Below are positions 57,675-64,000 of a stretch of 64,000 nucleotides of DNA, piece after piece. Location: NCBI GenBank assembly GCA_025934775.1, contig JAICWO010000003.1, positions 248,001 to 312,000 of the forward strand. The letters run 5' to 3'. Source of the stretch: Gemmatimonadaceae bacterium (GTDB lineage Bacteria; Gemmatimonadota; Gemmatimonadetes; Gemmatimonadales; Gemmatimonadaceae). A model generated the notes under the pieces. It was given only the letters and a program-made list of their open reading frames with translations, did no database searches and was not told where the DNA came from. Within the stretch, counting starts at the first letter, position 1, and each line of letters opens with the position of its first letter. Both the position numbers and the translations under genes were made by a program.

Positions 57675-58877
57675 CTACCGCTCCCCCCTCAACCAGCTCG
57701 CCGGATCCACCGCCGCCGGCGATCCGCCGTTGCTGCCGTGCCTGATCTCGAAGTGCAGATGCGGCGGGAGATCGGGATCGGAGATTCCAACGCCGCCGAT
57801 CACCTGTCCTTTCACGACCGTCTGCTGTTCGCGCACGTCGGCGCGTTCGAGCGAACCGTAAATCGAGTAGTCGCCGCCGCCGTGGTCGATGATCACGGTG
57901 AGTCCGTACGTGCCGAGCGGACCGACGCGCACGACCTTGCCGGCGGCGACGGCGTGGACGCTCGTGTTCACGGGCGCCTTGATGCCGACACCGTTCCAGC
58001 GAATCGTCGTGTTGTTCGCCGTCTGTGCTTTGCCGAAGGTGTACACGAGCGGGCCGTCGACGGGCCAATCGAGCTTGCCGTAGTCGCTCGTCTTGATCGT
58101 GCTCCCGACGCGCGCGGTGGACGGGCGCGAACGCTCGGCGCGCCGGCGTTCCGCGTCGAGCGACGCGATCGCGGTGGTGAGCTGCGATTCGGTGGCACGG
58201 AGCCGCGCAACGCGTGTCTCGATCTGCTGCGCCTGCCGGCGGGTCGACGTGAGGCTCGATTGGCGCTCGTGCTCGAGCGTGCGGAGCCGGTCTTCTTCCT
58301 GCGCCTTGTCGGCGCGGCTCTCCTCGAGCGACTGCTGGAGCGACACGAGTTGGTCGCGCTCACGCCCCGCCTCCTCGCGGAGCTGTTCGACGCGGTTCAC
58401 GAGCGCGCGATCGTGCAGCGCGAGCAGATGCAGATACTTGTATCGCGCGACCAGCTCACCGAAGGAGTGCGCCGAGAGGAGCGCCTCGCTCGTCGCCATC
58501 GGGCCGCGCTTGTAGATGTCGATCAGCCGACCGCGGAGCGTCGTGCGCTTCTTCGCCAGCTCTGCTTCGGTGAGCGCGACCTTCGTCGCCGCGTCGTTCA
58601 CGTCGGCGGTGATCGTCGAGAGCTGGTTGTCGAGCGTCTTGACGATGCGTGCGGTCGCATCGGCGCGGCTGTTGAGGTTCGAGACTTCCTCGTTCAGATC
58701 GTGCACGCTGTTCTGGAGCTCCGCGGCGCGGCGCTCGAGCGCCTCGCGCTCGTGGCGGATCTGATCGAGCGTGTCGCGCTGCGCGCGAATCTTCGCGCTC
58801 TGATCCTGCGCGTGCAGCGGGCTCCCGATCGCGGCCAGCGCGACGAGCGACAGCAGCAACGGCCAAACGCGCTTCAT
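57675..58877 (-). CDS. EnvC-like murein hydrolase activator
   Basis: A 400-residue exported protein: signal peptide, long coiled coils (about 25-255) and a C-terminal LytM/M23 domain. The M23 site is degenerate: the HxGIDI-like block reads NGVGIKAP and lacks the zinc His/Asp, although PHLHFEIRHG is kept. This matches EnvC, which does not cut peptidoglycan but activates amidases at the septum under FtsEX control. It overlaps the ftsX stop (ATGA), in the order ftsE-ftsX-envC. Confidence 0.93.
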   Translation of the reverse strand: MKRVWPLLLSLVALAAIGSPLHAQDQSAKIRAQRDTLDQIRHEREALERRAAELQNSVHDLNEEVSNLNSRADATARIVKTLDNQLSTITADVNDAATKVALTEAELAKKRTTLRGRLIDIYKRGPMATSEALLSAHSFGELVARYKYLHLLALHDRALVNRVEQLREEAGRERDQLVSLQQSLEESRADKAQEEDRLRTLEHERQSSLTSTRRQAQQIETRVARLRATESQLTTAIASLDAERRRAERSRPSTARVGSTIKTSDYGKLDWPVDGPLVYTFGKAQTANNTTIRWNGVGIKAPVNTSVHAVAAGKVVRVGPLGTYGLTVIIDHGGGDYSIYGSLERADVREQQTVVKGQVIGGVGISDPDLPPHLHFEIRHGSNGGSPAAVDPASWLRGER

Positions 58878-59722
58878 ATCTGCCGCAGATGCCGTCCGAC
58901 CGACGCGGCGCTGCCGAGCAGGCCGATCAAGGCTCCGAAGAGAATGCCGAGGATGGCGATGCGGCGATCGAAAAAGACCGTCTCGAAGTGCAGGTACTGC
59001 TCGAGCAGGCGCATCGCGAGGTAGGTCAGCGCGAGGGCGAGCCCTCCGCCGAGGATGCCTTTGATCGATCCTTCGATCAGGAATGGCCGGCGGATGAAGC
59101 CATCCGTCGCGCCGACGAGCCGCATGATCGAGATCTCGCGGCTGCGCGCGAGTACCGCCATACGAATGGTCGCGCCAATGATGATGATCGCCACAGCCGC
59201 GAAGGCGAGCCCGAGGGCCGCACCAGCGACGCCCGCGATGTTGCGCAGCCGGTAGAGCTGCGTGATCCACTCCTCGCCGAAGCGGATGTCATCGACGAAG
59301 TCGTGGGTGCGAATGCGATCGGCGACCTTGCGGACGGTCGCCGGGTCCTGAAAGCCGGGCTTGAGCTTCACGTCGAGCGAAGCGGGGAGGAACTCGGCGT
59401 CGAACACGTCCTTGAATTCGCCGAGCTCCGAGCGCGCTTTCGCGAGCGCCTGATCCTGCGTCACGATCTCGACCTTAAGGACTTCAGGGTATTTCGAGAT
59501 CTCGTCGGCGGCGTTGGTGAGCGTCTCGATCGGCGTGCTGTCGGCGACGAACGCGCGAATCTCCACCCGCTCAGCGACCTTTTCCAGCGCGTGACGGATA
59601 TTGAGCGCAACGAGGCCGAACAACCCGAACGCGAAGAGCGAGAAGGCGATCGTCGTGATACTGAGCGCGCTGAGCAAGGGCGCGCGCCTGAAGGCCCAGA
59701 GCGCCGTGCGTAGCCCGCCCAT
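58874..59722 (-). CDS. ftsX: cell division protein FtsX
   Basis: A 282-residue permease-like protein with four membrane helices, one near residue 20-45 and three after about 165, and a large periplasmic loop between the first two. Motif PEVLKVEIVTQDQALAK and the GLAFAAVAIIIIGATIRMAV helix are typical. It transmits ATP hydrolysis by FtsE across the membrane to EnvC. It overlaps ftsE by one base. Confidence 0.95.
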   Translation of the reverse strand: MGGLRTALWAFRRAPLLSALSITTIAFSLFAFGLFGLVALNIRHALEKVAERVEIRAFVADSTPIETLTNAADEISKYPEVLKVEIVTQDQALAKARSELGEFKDVFDAEFLPASLDVKLKPGFQDPATVRKVADRIRTHDFVDDIRFGEEWITQLYRLRNIAGVAGAALGLAFAAVAIIIIGATIRMAVLARSREISIMRLVGATDGFIRRPFLIEGSIKGILGGGLALALTYLAMRLLEQYLHFETVFFDRRIAILGILFGALIGLLGSAASVGRHLRQI

Positions 59723-60423
59723 CAGTCGGTCTCCAACGCGTAGCTCGGTGCCTCGAGCGAATCGAACACGATCTCGCCATGGTTGAGCTCGATCGTGCGA
59801 TACTCGGAGCTGCGTACGAGCTCGAGATCGTGCGTCGCCATGATCACCGCAGTGCCCGAGGCGTTGATCTCGCGAAGGAGCTGGAAGATGCCGCGCGTCG
59901 CCCGCTCGTCGAGATTTCCGGTCGGTTCGTCGGCGATGAGAACGAACGGGTCGTTCACCAGCGCGCGTGCGAACGCGACGCGCTGCTGCTCGCCGCCCGA
60001 GAGCTCGCGCGGATACGCCGTTGCCTTCGACGCGAGCCCGACCTGCGTCAGCGCACGCGCGACGCGGCCCGGAATGTTCGCGCGCGGCGTGCCGATCACC
60101 TCGAGCGCGAACGCGACGTTCGCCTCGGCGGTGCGATCCTCGAGCAGGCCGAAATCCTGGAAGACGATGCCGAGGCGGCGGCGAAGCTGGGCGACTTCGC
60201 GACGCTTGATCGCGTTGGAGCTGTACCCGCTCACACGCACCTCACCGGAGGAGGGGCGCTCGTCCATGTACAGCAGCTTGAGGATGGTACTCTTGCCGGC
60301 GCCGCTCGGGCCGGTCAGAAAGACGAATTCACCCTTGGCGACGCGGAAGCTGACGTCGCGCAGCGCCGCGGCTCCCGCAGCGGCGCGCGGGTACAATTTC
60401 GAGACGTGATCGAAGCAAATCAT
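59722..60423 (-). CDS. ftsE: cell division ATPase FtsE
   Basis: A 233-residue ABC ATPase. Walker A GPSGAGKSTI, signature ELSGGEQQRVAFARAL, Walker B FVLIADEPTGNLDE and a final H-loop MATHDLELV are visible; MICFDHVSKLYPRA is the FtsE-type start. With FtsX it controls the septal amidase activator EnvC. It is 2 bases from the AI-2E transporter gene in the operon. Confidence 0.96.
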   Translation of the reverse strand: MICFDHVSKLYPRAAAGAAALRDVSFRVAKGEFVFLTGPSGAGKSTILKLLYMDERPSSGEVRVSGYSSNAIKRREVAQLRRRLGIVFQDFGLLEDRTAEANVAFALEVIGTPRANIPGRVARALTQVGLASKATAYPRELSGGEQQRVAFARALVNDPFVLIADEPTGNLDERATRGIFQLLREINASGTAVIMATHDLELVRSSEYRTIELNHGEIVFDSLEAPSYALETD

Positions 60424-60425
60424 GG

Positions 60426-61565
60426 CTAAAGTTCAGACGCACCGATCCCTCCGGCGTCACCGCCATTGTCCGCCCAGTTCCACGCGGGTTGCGACGTGAT
60501 CGTGTCGAGGATGGCCTTGAGGAGGCCAATCAGCATCGGGCCGAGCAGAATGCCCACGAGCCCGAACGTGTAGACGCCCGTGATGAGCGCCACCAGCATC
60601 CAATAAAAGTTGAGCACCTTCGATCGTTCGGCGGCGATCTTGGGCCGCAGAAACGTCGAGATGTAGATGGTGTTCACCAGCAGGCCGATCGTCACCATCG
60701 CGATCCCCTGTCCCGGCGCGTTGCGGAAAATCGCGAGCCACGCAGCGACCGGGACGTACACGCTCCACGATCCGACGATGGGGAAGAATCCAATGATGAA
60801 CGAGACGATCGCGAGCACACCGGCGAGCGGCACGTGGAACGCGAGGTTCATCACCAGGATGATCACCGACTTGACGGCCTGCGTCAGGAAGGTGGAGTAG
60901 ATCGCGCCGTACAGCACGCCGCGCACGTTGTGCTCGAGCGCCGCCGAGAGCTCGCCGTACCTCGGTGGTATTCGACTGCGGACGTACTCCTTGATGTTGT
61001 CGGCGTCGACCATGACGTAGTACGCCGTGAACATGAAGATCGTCGCCGCGATGGAGAGGCTCACGACGGCGGCGCGCAGTCCGCTCAGGATGTTCGTGCC
61101 GTAGTTGGAGGCGACGAGCACGTAGTGCCTGACCGCGTCCCGCGTGTTGGCCGCGTGCAGGAATGGCACCTGGTGCAGCGAGGAGTCGACCTTGTCGGCG
61201 ATCTGATTCTGGTTCGCGTCGACGTAGGCGGCGACGTCGGCGATCTCCTCGTAGCTGTACGCCGTGAGGGCGACGAGCGGCACGATGAGGAGGAGCAGCG
61301 TGAGCGTCGCCGAGAGAATCCGGCTCGGGAGGTGACGCAGCAGCCAGAGGTACACCGGCCGCATGTACATCGCGACGATGACGCCGAGGATCGTCGCGAT
61401 GATGACGGTGCGAACCATCCACAGGAACAAAACCAAGATGGTCACGAACAGGAGCGTCGTGACCAACATCCGGCGGAGTTCCGGGAGTGTGAGCTCGGCC
61501 AGCGTCGGAGTCGTCCGCCGCTCGAGGCGGCGCCGCTCCGGCGCGACGAGGATAGGTTCGGCCAT
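60426..61565 (-). CDS. AI-2E/PerM-family membrane protein
   Basis: A 379-residue multi-pass protein with the AI-2E_transport (PF01594) architecture: two helix pairs near the start (TTLLFVTILVLFLWMV), an extended periplasmic helix, and PLAGVLAIVSFIIGFFPIVG near the centre. Family members transport autoinducer-2 or other small solutes, or Na+/H+; substrate unknown. Position beside ftsEX in the operon is notable but no link is documented. Confidence 0.88.
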   Translation of the reverse strand: MAEPILVAPERRRLERRTTPTLAELTLPELRRMLVTTLLFVTILVLFLWMVRTVIIATILGVIVAMYMRPVYLWLLRHLPSRILSATLTLLLLIVPLVALTAYSYEEIADVAAYVDANQNQIADKVDSSLHQVPFLHAANTRDAVRHYVLVASNYGTNILSGLRAAVVSLSIAATIFMFTAYYVMVDADNIKEYVRSRIPPRYGELSAALEHNVRGVLYGAIYSTFLTQAVKSVIILVMNLAFHVPLAGVLAIVSFIIGFFPIVGSWSVYVPVAAWLAIFRNAPGQGIAMVTIGLLVNTIYISTFLRPKIAAERSKVLNFYWMLVALITGVYTFGLVGILLGPMLIGLLKAILDTITSQPAWNWADNGGDAGGIGASEL

Positions 61566-62726
61566 CTAGTGTAGAGCCTGTTCGATGTCTCCTATCAAGT
61601 CTTTAGCACTTTCAATGCCGATGCTCAGCCGTAGAAAACCGTCCGGTATTCCGGCGTGCGCGCGCTGATCGGCGGTGAGATGGGCGTGTGACGTGAAGCG
61701 AGGCTCCGAGACGAGCGAGTCGACGCCGCCCAAGCTCGGGGCGTGGCGGATGAGCTTGAGCTTGCGGAGAAACTTCTCCGCCGCGCGGCCGCCGCCGGCC
61801 AGCTCGATCGCCAGCATCCCGCCGAACCCATCCATGATCTCTTTCGCGATCTCATGGTCGGGATGGCTCTCGAGTCCGGGATAGTGAACGCGGCGGATCT
61901 CTTTGCGCGTGCTCGCCCACTCCGCGACGGCCATCGCGTTCTCGTTGTGACGCCGAACACGCACGTCGAGCGTCTTGAGTCCCCGCTCGAGCAGCCACGC
62001 GCCGAACGGATCGGGCGCCTGACCCCAGAGCATCATCTTCTGCCGGACTTCCTCGATGTATGACGAGGTCCCGCAGACCACGCCGCCGAGCACGTCGTGG
62101 TGGCCGTTGAGGTATTTCGTCGCCGAATGGATCACGACGTCGGCGCCGTACTCGAGCGGGCGGAGATTGACCGGGCTCGCGAACGTGGAGTCGACGACGA
62201 GCGCGATGCCGCACTCTTTCGTGATGTAGCTGACGGGGCGCAGATCGAGCACGCGGCACGTGGGATTGACCGGCGTCTCGATGAAGATGGCGCGCGTCTG
62301 CTTCCGAAGTTTGTGGCGCCAGATCCGCGTCTCCAGCGGATCGACCAGCGTGACCTCGATCCCGAGCGACGCGAACTCCTTGGTGAAGAGCGCCGTCGCG
62401 CCCCCGTAGATCCACGAGCTCGCGAGCAGGTGGTCGCCGGGGCGGAGCAGAGCAAGCAGTCCGCACGCCGTCGCGGCCATGCCGCTCGAGAGGAGCACGG
62501 CCGCCTCCGCACCTTCGAGCGCCGCGACGCGCCGCTGCACCAGCTCGGCGTTGGGCGCGTTCCCGTAGCGCGGGTATCGCAACCCGTCGCCGGTTCCAAC
62601 TTCTTGAATGAAGTTGACGGACTGGAACAGCGGGTGCACGACCGCGGTGTCGGCGTCGCGGCCCTCGGTTCCGGCGTGTACGGCGAGCGTCGCGAGGTCG
62701 TTGGGTGGTGTCTTGCGTGCGCTCAC
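61566..62726 (-). CDS. Cys/Met-metabolism PLP enzyme
   Basis: A 386-residue fold-type-I PLP enzyme of the cystathionine gamma-synthase / O-acylhomoserine sulfhydrylase / methionine gamma-lyase group. The Schiff-base Lys is in VIHSATKYLNGHHDVLGG, the PLP-stacking stretch is SSGMAATACGLLAL, and PRYGNAPNAELVQRRVAALEG starts the core. Family members act on homoserine esters or cystathionine; which reaction cannot be told. It abuts the AI-2E gene and lies in the same operon. Confidence 0.9.
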   Translation of the reverse strand: MSARKTPPNDLATLAVHAGTEGRDADTAVVHPLFQSVNFIQEVGTGDGLRYPRYGNAPNAELVQRRVAALEGAEAAVLLSSGMAATACGLLALLRPGDHLLASSWIYGGATALFTKEFASLGIEVTLVDPLETRIWRHKLRKQTRAIFIETPVNPTCRVLDLRPVSYITKECGIALVVDSTFASPVNLRPLEYGADVVIHSATKYLNGHHDVLGGVVCGTSSYIEEVRQKMMLWGQAPDPFGAWLLERGLKTLDVRVRRHNENAMAVAEWASTRKEIRRVHYPGLESHPDHEIAKEIMDGFGGMLAIELAGGGRAAEKFLRKLKLIRHAPSLGGVDSLVSEPRFTSHAHLTADQRAHAGIPDGFLRLSIGIESAKDLIGDIEQALH

Positions 62727-62736
62727 GTGGTCTCCT

Positions 62737-63042
62737 TCAGCCCAGTGCCGGGCGTCGGCCGCGGCTATCGAGATCGGGTTTGATCACGCGCACCGTCTCG
62801 GACGGCGCCGCGCCGAGAATGTCGCGCAACACGACGTCGCCCTCGCGCGCGCCGGGATCGATGCGCACGGTCGCGAGCTCGTGGCGGCGCGGTCCGTACA
62901 CCCAGGCGAGCTCGCCTTCGGTGAGCAGTCGCGACCGCGCGTCCCGCGGCGCCATGATCACGAGCGGACCACGGTCCTCCTCGCCGCGTTTGGTGGCGAT
63001 GAGGTACGCCACGCGCAGCGGCGCGTTGATCGTCTCGCTCAC
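62737..63042 (-). CDS. small beta-rich protein of unknown function
   Basis: A 101-residue soluble protein, start at GTG (63042), overlapping the STAS gene stop by 4 bases. Hydrophobic beta strands alternate (RVAYLIATKRGEEDRGPLVI, MAPRDARSRLLTEGELAWVY, ELATVRIDPG, VVLRDILG). No known fold is recognised. Its tight coupling with an ATPase and a STAS protein suggests it belongs to one signalling unit. Confidence 0.65.
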   Translation of the reverse strand: MSETINAPLRVAYLIATKRGEEDRGPLVIMAPRDARSRLLTEGELAWVYGPRRHELATVRIDPGAREGDVVLRDILGAAPSETVRVIKPDLDSRGRRPALG

Positions 63043-63596
63043 GCGGCGTGTCCCACGGCGACGTACTCGCCATTCACCGACATCACGAGCCGCCGCCGGC
63101 AGAGCGCGCACAGCGTCTCGCGCGCCGCGTCGACCGCGACGCCGATCTCGTTGGCGACGTCGGCCGCTTCGGCGCGGCCCAGGCGATACGTCGCGTACCA
63201 GGCGCGCCGCTCGTCGTCGGAGAGCACGCCCATCAGCTCGACGCGGTCCTCGCGCTCCACCGCGAGCGCGAGCGCGTGCCGCTCGAGGACGGCCTCGATG
63301 GCGTCGCGGTGGTCCTCGGTCACGCCGCGGAAGAGGAAGTATGCCTCGTGCGGCGGATCGTCGCTCGTGTAGCGGATGAGCAGCTTGGCGACCACCTCGT
63401 CCGCGCATGAGAAATCGATCATTGAAACATGCGAAAAATCGATCACCGTCAGCGCGCGGCGCATGTCGTCGCCGCCGAGGAGCTGTTCGATCTGGCCGCG
63501 CACGGCCGCGCCGGTCGTGCGCGTGACCAGGTTCGAGTACAGATCGCAGGCGAGCGTCTCGCGCAGCACGCTGCTCACGTCGATGTGGTGCATCAT
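63039..63596 (-). CDS. STAS-like protein with C-terminal winged helix
   Basis: A 185-residue protein. The centre (about 45-95) has VIDFSHVSMIDFSCADEVVA, which matches the anti-anti-sigma/STAS-like core, and the end (about 140-175, AADVANEIGVAVDAARETL then RRRLVMSVNGEY) reads as a winged helix. Start ATG at 63596 overlaps the ATPase stop. A STAS domain paired with a GHKL ATPase suggests a partner-switch module, perhaps controlling transcription. Confidence 0.75.
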   Translation of the reverse strand: MMHHIDVSSVLRETLACDLYSNLVTRTTGAAVRGQIEQLLGGDDMRRALTVIDFSHVSMIDFSCADEVVAKLLIRYTSDDPPHEAYFLFRGVTEDHRDAIEAVLERHALALAVEREDRVELMGVLSDDERRAWYATYRLGRAEAADVANEIGVAVDAARETLCALCRRRLVMSVNGEYVAVGHAA

Positions 63597-64000
63597 ATAT
63601 CCATCGGGCTGTCCTTCTCGTTCGCGCCTGACGGAGCCGCTTCGGGAATGATGACTTGCACCTGCGCGCCGGCGAACGGCGCGAGGTCCTCCGCGAGCGG
63701 GACGTCGTCGTCCCAGCTCGGCACGATCGAAATCCGTGCCGTGCCGCTGCGCACCGAGAGCTTGCCGTTCCAGCGTCCGACATAATTGCGCGCGCCGGCC
63801 AACCCCTGTCCGCGACTCCGGTCACGAAACCGGCTCACGCCGCGGATCACCGCTTCCTCGAGCGCGGTCGCGTCGCCCCACCGCGACGTGGGCAGATGCC
63901 CCGGCGCGCTCTCGAGCGACTTGCGAAATCCGAGACCCGCGTCGCATACCGCAATGACGACGACGCGGCGGCCGAGCCGTTTCGTCCAGCGATAGCTCTG
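63593..64000 (-). CDS. GHKL-type ATPase, N-terminus outside the window
   Basis: 136 visible residues of the C-terminal part of a histidine-kinase-like ATPase. VIAVCDAGLGF is the N2-type ATP box and RGQGLAGARNYV the G2 box, followed by a beta-rich end. The family includes anti-sigma kinases and sensor kinases. The N-terminal part lies beyond the right edge. It is coupled to the STAS gene by an ATGA overlap. Confidence 0.75.
   Translation of the reverse strand, partial: QSYRWTKRLGRRVVVIAVCDAGLGFRKSLESAPGHLPTSRWGDATALEEAVIRGVSRFRDRSRGQGLAGARNYVGRWNGKLSVRSGTARISIVPSWDDDVPLAEDLAPFAGAQVQVIIPEAAPSGANEKDSPMDI

Follow-up and report, generated by a model that had tools for sequence, protein, structure and literature searches.

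The window, a stretch of 64,000 nucleotides (G000:C6:248001-312000) from a Gemmatimonadaceae-type genome, carries at its right end three genes, all on the minus strand, encoding an ATPase, a 185-aa protein and a 101-aa protein, hereafter K, S and the small protein (Table 1). As described in the first-pass annotation, these genes are joined by 4-bp overlaps, ATGA between the ATPase and STAS genes and GTGA between the STAS and small-protein genes. The remainder of the ATPase gene, past position 64000, was recovered and runs to 64510. Upstream of K, past the window edge, lie pfkB, which overlaps K by 4 bp, then ROK, GT9, and lepA. The three genes had been placed at the head of an operon, but they are preceded by these four and are internal to a longer cluster. 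On the other side, the PLP enzyme gene starts after a 10-bp gap with a Shine-Dalgarno-like AAGGAG inside.

Table 1 Features of the K-S locus and its neighbours, in window positions unless otherwise indicated
Feature	Position	Strand	Basis or remark
K, C-terminal part	63593..64000	-	STAS + GHKL serine-kinase-like ATPase; ORF; Pfam HATPase_c
K, full gene (305 aa)	to 64510, G000:C6:311593-312510	-	extends past window edge
Glu153 and Asn157 of the K N-box	past window edge	-	K gene beyond 64000
S, STAS-wHTH, 185 aa, CapS-like	63039..63596	-	homology to plasmid CapS-like proteins; AF2 pLDDT 91.8
STAS domain of S, residues 1-120	63237..63596	-	RsbS Z 9.8; weak STAS_2/DUF4325
Ser63 codon of S, predicted phospho-acceptor (= CapS Ser54, SpoIIAA Ser58)	63408..63410	-	invariance and helix position
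Winged helix-turn-helix of S, residues 124-184	63045..63227	-	AF2 model; MarR-family Z 11.1
Small double-psi-barrel-like protein, 101 aa	62737..63042	-	PF01568 matches
Cys/Met-metabolism PLP enzyme	61566..62726	-	Pfam 3.2e-124; neighbour, outside core
AI-2E-family transporter	60426-61565		between PLP gene and ftsE
ftsE	59722-60423	-	order-level neighbour
ftsX	58874-59722	-	order-level neighbour
envC	ORF from 57675	-	order-level neighbour

Gene neighbourhood and distribution of the pair

The small protein had been presented as lacking a known family, a view that has to be given up, as Pfam Molydop_binding (PF01568) is matched by 25/25 of its members (best 1.9e-8) and a comparison with the PDB points to the C-terminal domains of DMSO/TMAO reductases (1.2e-4). 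It shares the double-psi barrel with the Molydop_binding / MopB proteins, but differs from them in being a stand-alone protein of about 100 aa, with no molybdoenzyme attached, that occurs in a single family. Of the 119 class genomes searched, all 27 that belong to f1, the window's family, have a strong match, and no stand-alone match was found in any other family. In most members, translation of the gene is coupled to that of S. The small protein is thus not a core part of the module, being limited to f1, whereas pfkB, the ATPase gene, and the STAS gene occur together across the class. Of the trio whose joint conservation had been considered, what remains is the ATPase-STAS pair, which is conserved far beyond chance.

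The genes further downstream vary. The PLP enzyme gene adjoins S or lies close to it in f1, f2, f3, and f5, and comes directly after pfkB in f8. Among 20 long family loci, the AI-2E-family transporter gene is present in the window's genus and one other genus only, which reflects either an insertion in the window's lineage or a loss elsewhere.

From the position of the trio ahead of ftsEX-envC, it had also been proposed that these genes link a signal to septal cell-wall cutting controlled by FtsEX-EnvC. S does lie upstream of ftsEX-envC at the loci of f1-f3, which belong to one order. Nevertheless, everything between lepA and nfo is co-linear in these three families, so that this adjacency is not specific and carries little information. 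In f4-f9, the pair stays behind pfkB without ftsEX-envC downstream, and the gene after S is convergent or unrelated in several of these families. We thus consider a link to wall cutting very improbable.

K was detected in 191 of 200 phylum genomes and S in 58 of 59 family genomes (49/49 of the good ones), in a sample made mostly of MAG assemblies. The nine genomes without K comprise five of f10, which belongs to another class, two of f8, and G128 and G159; the last two were not retained as losses of K, since neither assembly contains lepA either, which suggests assembly gaps. K and S are both absent from f8 (2/2) and f10 (5/5), with no strong S match in any of these seven genomes. The arrangement pfkB-K-S is syntenic in 19 of 19 loci of families f2-f9, with 4-bp overlaps in most, and S directly follows K in 30/30 family loci. 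Among 80 named loci from an independent sample, S is found after K wherever the contig continues and is missing only at contig ends. The conserved unit is therefore pfkB-K-S, which occurs class-wide behind lepA-ROK.

Family labels change 9 times on the K tree, compared with a minimum of 8 and with 27.1 for shuffled labels. The tree thus tracks the family labels, indicating vertical inheritance. The plasmid, phage, and CapK branches are very long in this tree, and we made no use of the root of the class clade or of the placement of the Nostoc and Bradyrhizobium K proteins. The contig scan for relatives covered the best 80 of 384, all from Gemmatimonadota, so the spread beyond the phylum is known from plasmids and phages only. 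A record labelled Candidatus Kuenenia stuttgartiensis (L176, CALQGY020000010.1) contains a K gene with 61% identity to that of the window and is probably mislabelled or contaminated.

The f8 locus consists of lepA, ROK, pfkB, and PLP, leaving no room for K and S (L235, 6067-9229; L236, 6140-9168), and represents a clean empty site from which the pair was either lost or never gained. Compared with the window's proteins, those of f8 show an identity of about 32% for PfkB and about 34% for ROK (about 32-35% for these two proteins together) against 66-67% for LepA, whereas in f9, where K and S are present, the corresponding values are 44-46%, 53-54%, and 62-65%. PfkB and ROK of f8 have diverged far beyond what LepA would lead us to expect, a hint of a tie between PfkB and K-S that is suggestive only. 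No other neighbour is coupled to K-S as tightly as PfkB across the class.

Folds and conserved residues of K and S

K combines a STAS domain with a SpoIIAB/RsbW-type kinase domain and is probably a serine kinase. K proteins measure about 290-325 aa and begin at the STAS domain, compared with 368 aa for CapK. Its earlier description as an ATPase of the kinase fold holds, with a GHKL fold, intact motifs, and a Pfam HATPase_c match (5.7e-5) that falls slightly short of the curated cut-off. Fold comparison, carried out with the AF2 model of a relative (L107, pLDDT 83), places the kinase domain closest to SpoIIAB (Z 14.4), UsfX (12.5), and RsbW (12.4), versus about 9 for histidine kinases. The N-terminal residues 1-93 are STAS-like and match anti-sigma antagonists (1vc1, Z 9.3; 4hyl, Z 8.8). 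Glu153 and Asn157, equivalent to Glu214 and Asn218 of CapK, are invariant in the alignment (60/60). A Foldseek search against the PDB gave no match at E≤0.001 for the model of the K relative or that of S; CapS (9z71) is not among the matches, probably owing to the end of the PDB library in April 2026, and its absence is uninformative. PADLOC gave only a match of K to a DrmA model (1e-11), which falls in the GHKL region and was set aside as a defence assignment.

In S, the STAS part resembles RsbS (Z 9.8) and the stressosome STAS domain (Z 9.6) in structure comparison. Searches of single proteins with Pfam, NCBIfam, and PADLOC did not identify a STAS domain in S, and the S members gave sub-gathering Pfam matches, the best being STAS_2 (0.0034) and DUF4325 (0.047); a look at the literature on DUF4325 found nothing useful. 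Ser63, located in the first turn of helix 62-77 of the AF2 model, is conserved in 61/61 Gemmatimonadota rows of the alignment and in 7/7 outside homologues. Asp61, Ser63, and Glu67, corresponding to Asp52, Ser54, and Glu58 of CapS, are all conserved in 61/61.

The pairing first suggested for this locus, in which an ATPase with the fold of anti-sigma kinases accompanies a protein that joins STAS and winged helix, is borne out. Such a pair might act by classical partner switching, with K as anti-sigma factor, S as the antagonist of K, and a trans-encoded sigma factor as output. The likeness to SpoIIAB/SpoIIAA, RsbW/RsbV, and UsfX/RsfB includes the kinase fold and the STAS acceptor serine, which is invariant in S, and SpoIIE domains, a candidate source of phosphatase, were detected in 14/14 genomes. 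Nevertheless, K carries an additional STAS domain at its N terminus, and S has a winged helix-turn-helix (wHTH), features that resemble CapK/CapS and not RsbW/RsbV. Moreover, no sigma-factor gene was recognised among the conserved neighbours at the examined loci, and the sequence evidence favours CapKS/VapKS. Classical partner switching is therefore improbable here.

Comparison with CapK-CapS and VapK-VapS

CapK-CapS is a DNA-damage switch that controls anti-phage operons, in which CapS is a STAS-wHTH repressor (Chambers et al., EMBO J 2026, PMC13373217). CapK, activated by ssDNA, phosphorylates Ser54 of CapS, which makes the CapS dimer come apart and lifts repression of the immune operon downstream; structures of CapS are available (PDB 9z71, 9z72, 9z73), and deletion of the N-terminal HTH of CapK had no observed effect (PMC13373217). 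An adjacent immune operon was reported for 348 of 443 CapK-CapS pairs (PMC13373217). In the VapKSC variant, S has no wHTH and holds the VapC toxin, the bound protein being released when VapS is phosphorylated (PMC13373217). The main text of that paper makes no mention of Gemmatimonadota.

When plasmids were searched with K, homologues turned up in Nostoc, Sphingobium, Janibacter, and Bradyrhizobium, and the next gene after K encodes an S homologue on the Nostoc, Janibacter, and Sphingobium plasmids. At Z=100000, these S homologues score 1.9e-14 (Janibacter, annotated DUF4325), 3.7e-11 (Nostoc), and 5e-4 (Sphingobium). The Sphingobium pair lies within a multiubiquitin/ThiF operon and resembles published capKS. 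On the Janibacter plasmid (L105, 4034-5513, with a ThiF gene near) and the Nostoc plasmid (L103, 3995-5515), an HTH-less K is followed by a STAS-wHTH S, an arrangement intermediate between CapKS and VapKS. Bradyrhizobium elkanii plasmids encode a K-like protein with no S annotated beside it on its own strand (L106, 4028-4984). In Gordonia phage Phishy (L191, 2072-2923; MW862986.1), a K-like STAS-GHKL protein annotated as a histidine kinase (K-profile E 4.6e-26) is encoded in the region bounded by tail genes on one side and by the integrase/immunity repressor on the other, with no recognised partner S adjoining it.

As reference we used the E. roggenkampii CapK-CapS pair investigated by Chambers et al., on plasmid NZ_CP109730.1 (L187; CapS, WP_001567865.1). 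The K profile matches CapK at 2.2e-6 and the S profile matches CapS at 0.0079 at Z=100000. The homology of S to CapS is thus weak when measured directly and depends on the Janibacter and Nostoc bridging members. K-S resembles CapK-CapS in its two adjacent genes, the kinase first and then the STAS-wHTH protein, in the combination of STAS and GHKL kinase, and in the acceptor Ser and kinase Glu/Asn, which are invariant here. On the other hand, K has no counterpart of the N-terminal HTH of CapK, and Trp68, the ssDNA-sensing residue of CapK, is probably changed as well, aligning with Ser10/Leu11 in K, with no aromatic, in a stretch where the alignment is weak. CapK-CapS is also immune-linked, whereas K-S is a class-core chromosomal pair behind pfkB. 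No immune operon was found beside K-S, the neighbours being lepA, GT9, ROK, pfkB, the double-psi-barrel protein, the PLP enzyme, and ftsEX.

Similarly, the likeness to VapK-VapS-VapC lies in the HTH-less K with STAS and GHKL domains, in the S proteins of some members, which have no wHTH, and in the mode of action that we favour for S, in which its STAS domain would act on a protein partner. However, most S proteins here do have a wHTH, and the gene downstream differs by family; no VapC/PIN gene was recognised after S, where a Molydop_binding-like gene, a PLP enzyme gene, or an unrelated gene is found.

The wHTH of S is real and not an artefact of alignment, a doubt raised when it was first noticed: the AF2 model of S (pLDDT 91.8) shows helices 127-139, 144-151, and 155-167 followed by a short wing, with pLDDT of about 95-98 over residues 124-180, and the domain matches MarR-family proteins (Z 11.1) and, in a PDB profile search, an ArsR regulator (1.3e-3). 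Its presence in most genera argues that it does something there. Nevertheless, the residues that CapS uses to contact DNA are largely replaced. Asn145 is retained in 1 row of the Gemmatimonadota S alignment, the position of Arg149, K/R in every reference, is mostly hydrophobic, and the Gly169-Gly170 of the wing is not retained, the wing being shortened. All references (7/7) have Lys at the position of Lys151, where here Asp (21) and Glu (15) account for 36 of 59 rows and Lys/Arg for 2/59.

The recognition helix of S has a mean net charge of -1.8 (59 rows), compared with +2 to +3 in the references and +0.7 in MarR proteins of the same genomes, the latter being a rough regex control. We downgraded this charge as proof against DNA binding, since arginines 167-169, past the helix window, partly offset it. 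Indeed, Arg168 and Arg169, where the recognition helix ends, are conserved in 51/61 and 56/61, respectively, and this pair could still contact DNA. In two genera the pair K-S is kept while the wHTH is not: it is wholly missing from genus g30 (3/3 genomes) and reduced to a remnant in genus g36 (4/4 genomes), with Ser63, K, and synteny intact in both.

These data bear on the possibility that S is a CapS-like repressor of altered specificity, whose unphosphorylated dimers would bind DNA through the wHTH and keep the pfkB operon, or else a regulon in trans, repressed until K relieves this on stress. CapS works in just this way, and no characterised homologue is closer; the fold is intact in most genera, the arginine pair is conserved, and the plasmid relatives retain most of the CapS DNA-contact pattern. 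Against this, the contact residues are now acidic or hydrophobic, and two genera have lost or gutted the wHTH with the pair retained. In addition, 3 of 54 wHTH columns are at least 90% conserved, compared with 27 of 92 STAS columns, and most genomes have no K-S intergenic space for CapS-type operators. We regard this repressor as possible, though on the unlikely side.

The suggestion that the STAS protein itself binds DNA stands for CapS (PMC13373217), but direct binding in this lineage is unsupported, because the residues used by CapS are replaced and two genera have no intact wHTH. S may still bind DNA in some other manner. Given the replaced contact residues and the immune operon absent from the neighbourhood, we place K-S outside the set of immune controllers, as a pair that works like CapK-CapS.

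A proposed phospho-switch acting on a protein partner

We consider it moderately probable that K-S is a phospho-switch of the CapK/CapS type in which S acts mainly on a protein partner, and that the class inherits it vertically as a fixed core module. The folds, the gene order, the invariant residues, the co-retention of the pair, the replacement of the contact residues, and the loss of the wHTH in two genera were all computed here. In the proposed mechanism, K, with its degenerate N-terminal STAS domain and SpoIIAB/RsbW-like kinase, would sense a signal, probably through its own STAS domain, and would phosphorylate S at Ser63, the invariant residue with which the second helix of the S STAS domain begins. 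Phosphorylated S would then switch binding partner, by analogy with CapS, whose dimer is broken, and with VapS, whose bound protein is released. A PP2C/SpoIIE phosphatase encoded elsewhere in the genome would presumably reset S. S would most likely act on a protein partner, with the wHTH as an accessory module, and the output would more likely be pfkB or a trans target than FtsEX-EnvC.

A bolder form of this switch, in which a CapKS-type module has become class-wide housekeeping and S, freed from DNA, regulates a protein of metabolism, for instance the PfkB-family sugar kinase co-transcribed with it, is speculative, and we think it unlikely. More generally, an immune-free, class-core branch in which the phospho-switch residues are fixed and those that read DNA are gone would make the kinase-STAS pair a general signalling module, and this branch would help decide which form is derived, the immune or the housekeeping one. 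K-S would also provide a signalling handle for common, little-studied soil bacteria.
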